From Reyranella sp. (lineage in GTDB: Bacteria; Pseudomonadota; Alphaproteobacteria; Reyranellales; Reyranellaceae), in the NCBI RefSeq assembly GCF_017305915.1, contig NZ_JAFKJN010000012.1, positions 124,001 through 188,000 of the forward strand: a stretch of 64,000 bases of DNA. Direction: 5' to 3'. Each line of letters opens with the position of its first letter. Positions within the stretch are counted from its first letter, which is position 1. Positions 39,301 through 42,789 of the stretch are shown here, piece after piece. Both the position numbers and the translations under genes were made by a program. The notes under the pieces are model-generated. The model saw nothing but the letters and a program-made list of their open reading frames with translations, was not told the origin of the DNA and searched no databases.

Positions 39301-40130
39301 GGCGGCTGGCCGAGCTGATGGACGGCGATGCCACGCTCGAGAGCGCGCCGGGCGAGGGCTCGACCTTCACCGTCACGGTCACCGTGCGGCGCGGCAGCGC
39401 CGGCGCCATCGCGGCCGACAAGGCGGAGACGCTCAGCCTGACCGCCGACGGCATCCGCGTGCTGGCGGTCGACGATTCGGAGATCAATCTCGAGGTGCTG
39501 GTCGGCCAGTTCGAGGTGCTGGGGCTGGCGCTCGACACGGCGACCAACGGCATCGAGGCGCTGACCCTGTGGCGCGAGCGCAGCCACGCGCTGGTGCTGA
39601 CCGACATCCACATGCCCGACATGGACGGCTTCGAGCTGACCCGCCAGATGCGGGCCGACGAAAGCGCGCTCAACCGGCCGCGCACGCCGATCGTGGCGCT
39701 CACCGCCAATGCCCTGAAGGGCGAGGCCGAGCGCTGCCTCGACGCGGGCATGGACGACTACCTGACCAAGCCGCTGACCCTGGATCGCCTGCGCGAGGCG
39801 GTGGCGCGCTGGGCGATCGGCGACGCGACGCCTGCGATCGACCGCTCGGTGGTCGAGGGCATGTTCGGCGGCAATGCCGTGACGGTCGCCCGCGTGCTCG
39901 GCCGCTTCCGCGACGCCGGCGCCCGGCTGGTCGCCGAGATCGCGGCCGCCCGCCAGGACCGCGAGCAGCTCACCGAGCTCGCTCACAAGCTCAAGGGCGC
40001 CGCCCGCTCGGCCGGCGCCACGACCCTGGGCGATCTCGCGGCGACCGTCGAGAAGTCCGGCCGCGGCGACGACATCGAGGCCCTGCAGGCCGAATGGCGC
40101 CGGGTGGCCGCCGCCCTCAGCGCCGGGTGA
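36393..40130 (+). CDS. multi-PAS hybrid sensor histidine kinase with receiver and Hpt domains
   Basis: A 1245-residue kinase. Residues about 25-200 hold six or so membrane segments (MASE-like sensor). Then come about four PAS-type modules (around 225-330, 345-470, 475-600 and 615-745), each starting with a short helix and patterns such as [20 protein letters not shown]. The HisKA domain has [20 protein letters not shown] (His about 783); the ATPase domain has [19 protein letters not shown] and [10 protein letters not shown]. The receiver has [14 protein letters not shown] (Asp about 1071), and the C-terminal Hpt has [14 protein letters not shown] (His about 1198). It can run a full His-Asp-His relay to the regulator at 35355. 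Its 3' end overlaps the MATE gene by 14 bp. Confidence 0.95.
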
Positions 40131-41472
40131 GGGCATCGAAGCGGCGGCGGGTGATCACCAGCAGGCCGATCGCGAAGGCCACGAAGGCCACGGCGCTGGC
40201 GGCGAACAGGCCGAGCGGGCCGTCGCCGATCGACAGTGCCAGCCAGCCGCCGGCGACGGCGACGACGAGGCGCAGCAGCGCGAGCAGGAACGGGCCCACG
40301 ACGGTGCCGAGACCGACCGTCGCGAAGTAGCAGGCGAGCGCGGCGCCGGTGAACGGGAACACCACCGCCTGGCAATGGAGATAGAGCACACCCAGCTCGC
40401 GCACCGCCGGATCGGTGGTGAACAGGCCCATCCAGCGCCCCGCGGCCAGGGCGATCGAGGTGAAGATCAGGCCGATCGCCGCCGCCACGGCCGCGCCGAT
40501 CCAGGCGGCGCGCCGGGCGCGCTCGAACTCGCGCGCGCCGACCGCGGTCGCCACCATGGTGATCACCGCCGAGCCGAAGGCGAAGGTGATCGGGTACTGC
40601 AGCAGCTCCAGCCGTACCGCGGCGCCATAGCCCGCGACCGCCGCGCTGCCGAGGCTCGCGACCAGGCCCGCGACGAAGAACGTCGTGATCTGGAACATCA
40701 GCGCGCTCATCGCCGACAGCCCGCCGACGCGTAGGATCGCGACCGCTTCGTCGCGGCGCAGCCGCAGCGCCGCGGCCCGCAGACGCACCAGCGCCTGGCG
40801 CGACACCAGATGCAGCACCAGCACGATCGTGCCGACGGCATAGGCCGACAACGCGGCCAGCGCGGCGCCGAGGATGCCGAGCTGCGGGAAGGGACCCCAG
40901 CCGGTGATCAGCGCCGGCGACAGCGCGAGGTGGAACGCTTCGCCGATTGCAATAGAGAAAGCCGGCACAACCATGTTGCCGGCGCCGCGCGAGACGTTGG
41001 CCAGGACGTTCTGCAACCACACGAAGGCCGAGCCGCCGAACAGCACCGCGCCGTAGGCGATCGCCATCTCGAGCGCGCGTTCTTTCAGGCCCATCGCCGC
41101 GTAGAGCGCCGGCCCGAACGCCAGCAGCAGCGCCGTCGTCAGCACCGCGCCGACCAGCGCGATCGCGAGGCCGACGCCGGCCAGCGACTGCGCCCGGGCA
41201 GGGTCGCCGGCGCCGAGCGCGCGGCCGATCGCCGACGACACGCCCGAGCCGATGCCCGAAGCAGTCGCGGTCTGCAGCACCAGGAACAGCGGGAAGACGA
41301 CCGCGACGCCGGCCAGCGCGTCGCTGCCCAGCCACGACACGAAGAGCGCATCGGCGGTCAGGAAGGTGATGCGCGCCGCCGCCTCGCCGATGTTGGGCGC
41401 GGCGAGCGTCAGCAGCAGCGGCAGGACCGGCGCTTCGAGGAGGCGTTGGGTACGCGCGGACAGGACGGACAT
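40117..41472 (-). CDS. MATE family efflux transporter
   Basis: A 451-residue, 12-helix multidrug and toxin extrusion protein. Each half starts with the family pattern: [20 protein letters not shown] (residues about 17-36) and [20 protein letters not shown] (about 240-260). [20 protein letters not shown] and [20 protein letters not shown] are typical cytoplasmic loops. It exports cationic or toxic compounds using an ion gradient. ATG at 41472 with GGGGAGAG upstream. Convergent and overlapping with the hybrid kinase 3' end. Confidence 0.95.
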
Positions 41473-41667
41473 GGCACTCTCCCCGACTGATGCGGAGAGA
41501 GTTGCGCCGGCGGACGCGCCGAGGCGATTACGCGGTCGGTAATCAATGAAATCGCCAGAGCGTGTGGCGCCCTTCAATGTCATTCCAAAAAACTCCCGGC
41601 CGCGGGCGCCAAGAGGCCGGTCAAGAAGACTGCAAATTCTTTCGTGGTTTGCAGCGACCGGGAGTCG

Positions 41668-42288
41668 ATGAGTAACGTCGATGACTCGTTGTGGGCAGAG
41701 CAAGAAGGCATCATATGCACTCGACGATCAGCCGAGACTACGCTACGATTCGGTGGCGTCACAGAGAGATACATGGGCGACTCGCCAACGAAAAGCACAC
41801 GGGAATTAGTCACGCTTCCAGCGGAATTGGCCAAGCGCATCGAGGCCTTTCGCGCGCGCGTGGGCCACATGTCGAAAAGCGACTCGCTCAAGCTGCTGAT
41901 CGAGGGTGGTCTACGCAGGTATGACACTTGGGACGACCTGTTCGCGCGATGTCAGGAAGCAAGCCGTAGTGGTCAATCCCTCGGCGACATCATTATGCAG
42001 ATTCTTGTCGACCATCCGCTTATCGCCAGCACAACTTTGGATTCGTCCTCCCTTTGCGCCTACCTCGTGAAGGACGATCCAGAGGAAACCGAGTTCCGAT
42101 TTCGCTTCAGCCGTTCGTCAAACAGCTGGGCATGGGAATACCTAGCGGATGACTACAATCAGCGAGAATGGAGAGAGCGTGAGCGCCCTAAAGCGCCGCC
42201 ATCTGACGATGACTTTAGTCCGCCGCCTGGTCCCCGCCGACCGGCGACGCGCAGTAAGGCTGAGCTGGATGACGACATTCCGTTTTGA
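41668..42288 (+). CDS. ribbon-helix-helix protein with SSB-like C-terminal tip (unknown function)
   Basis: Up to 206 residues from ATG 41668 (CGGGAG upstream); an ATG at 41773 would give 171 residues starting right at the RHH domain. The RHH fold reads STRELVTLPAELAKRIEAF then HMSKSDSLKLLIEGGLRRYD. A middle part (about 95-165) includes FRFRFSRSSNSWAWEYLADD. A charged, proline-rich linker (KAPPSDDDFSPPPGPRRP) leads to the final residues AELDDDIPF, identical at the tip to SSB (DDDIPF), which SSB uses to recruit RecQ, PriA, ExoI, RecO and others. The DNA is richer in A/T than its neighbours, so recent acquisition is likely. No homologue is recognised. Confidence 0.75.
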   Translation: MSNVDDSLWAEQEGIICTRRSAETTLRFGGVTERYMGDSPTKSTRELVTLPAELAKRIEAFRARVGHMSKSDSLKLLIEGGLRRYDTWDDLFARCQEASRSGQSLGDIIMQILVDHPLIASTTLDSSSLCAYLVKDDPEETEFRFRFSRSSNSWAWEYLADDYNQREWRERERPKAPPSDDDFSPPPGPRRPATRSKAELDDDIPF

Positions 42289-42523
42289 GCACCCCACACA
42301 GACGACCCTAGAGAGGTGGTTGCCCGAAGTTTATTGAACCGCATTCAGAAGTTCCGGTCAGCGAATCGGACCTCCGGATACTCCAACTTGCCCGCGCTCT
42401 TCTGAGGCGGAGCGTAGAGCGCGCTCGCTCGCGGCCTTGCTACTGCCAGATACACCACCAAATGGGACACGACCCTGAATCCCGCCCTTGGTCTGGAGCA
42501 TTCCATGTTCGATGACCGGCAAG

Positions 42524-42695
42524 GAGCCTTTCCCTGGGGCGGGCCCGTACACGTGCGGGCCTACCACAGGGTAAGGTTCGGCAAGGACGAGTGGGTGAGA
42601 GCCCATACTCGTTCTTGGCCCTGCCGTTAGCGCGGCGGGAAAGCAGCGTAGTACTAGCGTAGGCCCCTCGTCCTCGTGGCGAGGGGCTCTTTTTT
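42524..42695 (+). ncRNA. candidate structured RNA or structured 3' UTR
   Basis: In a 500-bp gap (42289-42789) without a supported gene, the last 170 bases fold strongly: helix GAGCCTTTCCCTG / CAGGGTAAGGTTC (42524-42536 with 42567-42579, 12 of 13 pairs) enclosing GGCCCG / CGGGCC (42542-42547 with 42556-42561); helix CAAGGACGAGTGGG / CCCATACTCGTTCTTG (42582-42595 with 42602-42617) with loop TGAGAG; then a terminator with T6. A weaker pairing, AAGTTCCGG with a later CCGG...AACTT, lies near 42348-42396. It could be an independent RNA or the 3' UTR of the RHH gene. It matches no RNA family I know (not RNase P, tmRNA, SRP or 6S). Confidence 0.5.
42663..42695 (+). terminator. intrinsic terminator, plus strand
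   Basis: Stem GCCCCTCG (42663-42670) / CGAGGGGC (42680-42687) followed by TTTTTT at 42690-42695. The T-run is on the plus strand only, so it ends a transcript coming from the RHH gene or the structured RNA, not the convergent parB message. Confidence 0.9.
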
Positions 42696-42789
42696 GTTTG
42701 CTTGATTAGACTCCTACGACGACTCGCGGTCAACAGAACCGATACACCATGTCACGCCGCGAACGGCGTTCGCCTCCAAAGAGGGACGC

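Follow-up and report, generated by a model that had tools for sequence, protein, structure and literature searches.

What would a protein do that joins a ribbon-helix-helix (RHH) domain to the C-terminal tip of SSB? The question is raised by a gene in the stretch of 64,000 nucleotides that we analysed (the window), which is part of contig C49 in an alphaproteobacterial genome of 6.47 Mb. The stop at 42288 closes an ORF whose product terminates KAELDDDIPF, with acidic residues followed by I-P-F at the extreme C-terminus, as in SSB-Ct tip proteins. The initial annotation placed the start of this ORF at 41668. The true start is probably ATG 41773, because the closest homologue, encoded by another Reyranella (G006), is alignable only from there and the preceding 35 residues have no counterpart. 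In the 171-aa protein, the N-terminal RHH domain is followed by a middle domain of helical/beta type, from which a short linker leads to the SSB tip:

41773..42288, + strand: gene of the RHH-SSB-tip protein, 171 aa, with ATG 41773 as the most likely start.
41794..41910, + strand: RHH domain, residues ~8-46, from profile matches and a 54-residue model.
41929..42147, + strand: middle domain, residues ~53-125, from the homologue alignment, a low-confidence model and a phrog_16979 match.
42205..42285, + strand: SSB-derived tail DDDFSPPPGPRRPATRSKAELDDDIPF, residues 145-171, alignable to the host SSB end DDDLSPPPSSGGGGGRPATRSKAELDDDIPF.
42268..42285, + strand: SSB-Ct tip DDDIPF, from the ORF end, a pattern scan and phrog_16979 scoring.

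Searches of Pfam, NCBIfam and PADLOC with the window protein gave zero matches, and its full-length structure model had a pLDDT of 48. The G006 homologue is 49% identical and ends RPATKDLDDDIPF, including LDDDIPF. Across 148 aligned codons the two genes differ at 58, 51 and 86 first, second and third codon positions, respectively. This spread matches the expectation for a gene under selection, indicating that the ORF is coding.

The host genome has a single ssb gene (C3:24011-24496), the product of which ends DDDLSPPPSSGGGGGRPATRSKAELDDDIPF. The final 16 residues of the window protein, RPATRSKAELDDDIPF, are identical to the tail of this SSB, which is the closest of 43 distinct Reyranella SSB tails (16 terminal identities vs. 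at most 12 elsewhere; tail alignment score 117 vs. 105 for the best other Reyranella SSB). Of the 48 bases compared with the 3' end of host ssb, 40 are identical, and independent codon choice would give 39.7 on average (P 0.51), ruling out recent copying of the ssb 3' end. Since synonymous sites are no closer than under independent codon choice, the tail has been kept as protein; we conclude from these comparisons that its capture is old, or that it has been readjusted several times, with retention at the protein level. A back-translated [DE][DE][DE]IPF-stop pattern matched 63 times in 61 Reyranella genomes, mostly in ssb, and its reversed control not once; across the class, the DDDIPF pattern was present in 109 of 372 genomes and the reversed control in 0 of 372. 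Given zero reversed matches against 63 for the true pattern, the DDDIPF ending is judged to be beyond chance, and the initial identification of the terminal ELDDDIPF as an SSB tip holds. The window protein thus has in common with bacterial SSB (PF00436) the tip, the last 16 residues (of host SSB) and a DDD-x-SPPP linker motif, but it lacks the OB fold and is predicted to bind double-stranded DNA through its RHH domain. Membership of the SSB family itself was rejected, as the protein has no Pfam match and the ssb of its own genome is a separate locus.

Assignment of the N-terminal region to the RHH (CopG-like) fold, also made initially, is supported by profiles and modelling. Searched against the PDB, a profile of nine RHH domains matched chains of MazE9, MazE6, VapB26, NikR and CopG at E 0.02-0.8. 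Of the nine aligned members, six matched Pfam RHH_1 (best 1.8e-8); the window protein's own domain scored 0.032, below the curated cut-off. The 54-residue model (pLDDT 71) consists of an extended segment followed by two helices (17-31 and 35-51). The fold is common to regulators of the CopG/MetJ/Arc type, to which the window protein adds the middle domain and the SSB tip. As a dimer, the domain is predicted to bind a specific double-stranded site.

For the middle domain, two helices followed by four strands are predicted by the low-confidence model, and its conserved core reads LFxRCxxA...GxSxGxII...DHPL. It matched nothing in Pfam or NCBIfam, and the sole known family found was PHROG 16979, a phage protein family of annotated function unknown. 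The phrog_16979 profile matched residues 42-128 of the 206-aa reading of the window protein (E 7.6e-9, 36.5 bits), taking in both the RHH and the middle domain. With the G006 homologue, profile positions 5-155 of 155 were aligned, tip included, at 48.1 bits. The score fell to 41.8 when the last six residues were removed, to 41.7 when the tip was reordered to FPIDDD and to 43.1 when it was changed to DDDAPA, so that the tip is worth ~6 bits in this homologue and the gain is gone on reordering. A chimera of the window core and the G006 tail aligned to positions 9-155 of 155. Because the scores of the G006 homologue drop without the tip or with a reordered one, and because the chimera reaches position 155, an SSB-like tip appears to be built into the end of the PHROG 16979 profile. 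The linker of the window protein is longer than in PHROG 16979 and resembles that of host SSB, and for this reason its own alignment reaches the tip only once the linker has been shortened; the RHH and middle domains are shared directly, the tip via the G006 homologue. The initial annotation knew of no described family with this layout. No RHH regulator or other RHH protein with an SSB tip is described in the open-access literature that we searched, but PHROG 16979 appears to cover the layout, tip included. Genome matches of phrog_16979 in G693 and G550 were rejected as family members, being a bare short RHH protein and a response regulator.

The RHH-plus-middle-domain gene was found in two of 65 Reyranella species, that of the window and G006, and we conclude from this distribution that it is accessory. 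These two are the full-length members found to carry the tip. It is absent from a 116-aa relative in G094, from a relative in a phage-like region of G393, whose neighbour we read by eye as a YqaJ-type recombination nuclease, and from a more distant relative, the RHH protein of Azospirillum phage Cd. The tip is therefore not essential to the family, and homologues are divided in whether they keep the combination of RHH domain and tip on which the initial proposal was built: the closest does, but these three do not. tblastn searches of viral and of plasmid/phage sequences with the window protein gave no match; with the G006 protein, the same searches gave nothing beyond a short RHH match to Azospirillum phage Cd and to related copies on plasmids. 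When further IMG/VR tip proteins were compared with the family profile, none of the matches listed was a viral protein combining RHH and tip. Two Enhydrobacter matches (L013, L014) were rejected as homologues, since the similarity is confined to the tail and L013 is an SSB gene. For a comparison of tails, ssb was sought in the G006 assembly (82% complete) and not found. Taken together, these data lead us to conclude that the RHH protein encoded in the window is real, rare and phage-related, and that its SSB tip is genuine.

The gene lies between a histidine kinase gene and parB. As noted initially, its DNA is AT-richer than the surroundings (56-57% GC vs. ~70%). Throughout the genus, insertions at the histidine kinase-parB junction (window 40117-42760) are variable: in G005, whose ssb and parB are the most similar, the histidine kinase directly adjoins parB; on the corresponding side of parB, G022 and G037 have a MATE transporter plus a response regulator, and the window has a MATE transporter plus the RHH-SSB-tip gene. 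The 3' flank of parB in 12 relatives examined contained no RHH-tip homologue. The initial proposal of a transferred module is supported in that the gene is accessory; the place beside parAB looks incidental because the site is a variable insertion point. A centromere-binding RHH protein of the ParG/Omega type, a conserved partner of parA, was rejected on the grounds of these flanks and of the ParB already encoded at the locus. A stretch on the + strand (42511-42692), between parB and the RHH gene, is strongly structured (-103.5 kcal/mol, z -6.6) and ends near an intrinsic terminator; it gave no convincing Rfam match and is a candidate small RNA.

The surroundings of the G006 copy comprise what we take, by eye, to be an ISXO2-like transposase, a DUF5681-like gene and an ImmA-like protease. 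This copy is divergent from a short RHH gene (pair at L087:7742-8360), and two RHH genes are similarly divergent in an Azospirillum phage Cd prophage (L019:2472-3180). The ten-base word GTACCTGTGT occurs in the spacer of both pairs and is a possible phage operator, although suggestive only. Upstream of the window gene, no operator was identified, and a sigma-70-like promoter was sought and not found.

On this evidence we favour, with about even confidence, a phage-derived accessory adaptor that docks SSB-partner enzymes at its own DNA sites. An RHH dimer would bind a specific double-stranded site and offer at least two free acidic tips, which would occupy the SSB-Ct pockets of enzymes of the host such as Pol III chi, PriA, RecO and DnaG. 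The docked enzymes would thereby be delivered to the RHH-bound site with no need for single-stranded DNA; in the phage from which the gene descends, the effect would be to aid the initiation or restart of replication, or recombination, at a phage locus. In the usual picture, it is SSB bound to single-stranded DNA that assembles the SSB partners. If the proposal is true, a sequence-specific duplex binder with the host SSB tip would bypass this rule, could bring or divert repair and replication enzymes to chosen DNA sites, and would show phages or islands borrowing the host's replication-repair hub.

We prefer this function because the tail equals that of host SSB over 16 residues and was kept as protein, and because LDDDIPF persists at 49% identity. 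It is also favoured by the tip-dependent scoring of phrog_16979, by the presumed YqaJ-like nuclease beside the G393 relative and by the host's own Pol III chi, an SSB-Ct partner encoded in its genome. A precedent exists in that fusion of the SSB tail to PriB yields a chimera (PriB-SSBc) that gains stimulation of PriA (PMC8509808). This chimera is likewise a DNA-binding protein with an SSB tail, but it is artificial, has an OB fold and binds single-stranded DNA. Similarly, the SSB of phage HK620 engages Sak4 through its tip (PMC5928155); such phage single-strand binders resemble the window protein in being phage proteins whose SSB-like tip engages a partner, whereas they bind single-stranded DNA through OB-type folds.

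We consider it unlikely that the protein is instead a decoy, whose tip competes with SSB for partner enzymes and dampens host or rival-phage replication and repair, with the RHH domain serving mainly autoregulation and multivalency. A tail that copies the host's own SSB tail suits competition for the host's partners, RHH proteins are frequently autorepressors, and the divergent short RHH gene beside the G006 copy resembles a phage regulatory pair. However, SSB is abundant, so a decoy would require high expression, and the window gene has no promoter signal that we could find; the middle domain would also be left without a role.

Acidic C-terminal tails of other proteins act as intramolecular DNA mimics, as proposed for SSB and Hfq (for work on Hfq, see PMC5606850), and the tip might in the same way lower or tune DNA binding by the RHH domain. 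This seems quite improbable to us, as generic acidity would do for such self-inhibition, yet IPF and the exact residue order are kept, the signature of docking into a partner pocket. There is still less to recommend an antitoxin or a plain RHH repressor that came by its tail incidentally, through gene fusion: antitoxins commonly carry RHH domains and dominate the best PDB matches of the RHH profile, but there is no adjacent toxin-like ORF and no PADLOC match, and the tip is kept in the 49%-identical homologue and in the phage profile. A type II antitoxin in particular was rejected because, from 41773 to parB, the gene has no coding neighbour on its own strand. That the DDDIPF ending arose by chance or is a decaying, functionless relic, as the rarity of the gene and its tipless distant relatives might suggest, is highly improbable in view of the empty reversed controls in 61 and 372 genomes, the 16-residue identity to host SSB and the third-position bias of codon differences.

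SSB tips are also present on other proteins of mobile elements. Scans of IMG/VR yielded at least 269 tip proteins, at least 90 of which matched an SSB profile derived from these scans; those outside the profile include helicase-like proteins (579-586 aa), contig-end fragments and small proteins resembling phage single-strand binders. Tips on proteins other than SSB were found at the following loci:

L082:3888-4589, L085:4037-4729, L089:3354-4133 and L241: members of a helical tip family.
L264:3010-3690 and L265:1965-2726: plasmid members of the helical tip family.
L086:2230-4440 (G003): HerA ATPase with an added C-terminal ELDDDIPF, matching PADLOC HerA (PDLC04106).
L130, L145, L150 and L163 (IMG/VR): helicase-like proteins of phages, 579-586 aa long, with ELDDDIPF at the C-terminus.
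L083 (G057), ending DEDIPF, and L084:4604-5233 (G035), ending ADDDIPF: phage-region proteins unrelated to SSB.

In the HerA ATPase, the tip lies beyond the end of the PADLOC HerA profile. We tentatively suggest, at somewhat less than even confidence, that mobile elements repeatedly give unrelated proteins the host SSB tip, forming a class of plug-in adaptors in which the RHH version places SSB-partner enzymes at chosen double-stranded sites without single-stranded DNA. The tip on such unrelated proteins suggests an overlooked, searchable signature of proteins that plug into the hub.

The helical tip family is a second accessory family with the tip. Its proteins are ~230-260 aa long and mostly helical, with no strong match to a known family, and occur in Reyranella, in other alphaproteobacteria and on Methylobacterium and Methylosinus plasmids. 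Four aligned members show 21-31% identity to the first sequence; LDDDIPF is invariant among them, whereas the disordered linker varies between members. One plasmid member ends SDDIPF, and the member in G022 adjoins an integrase.
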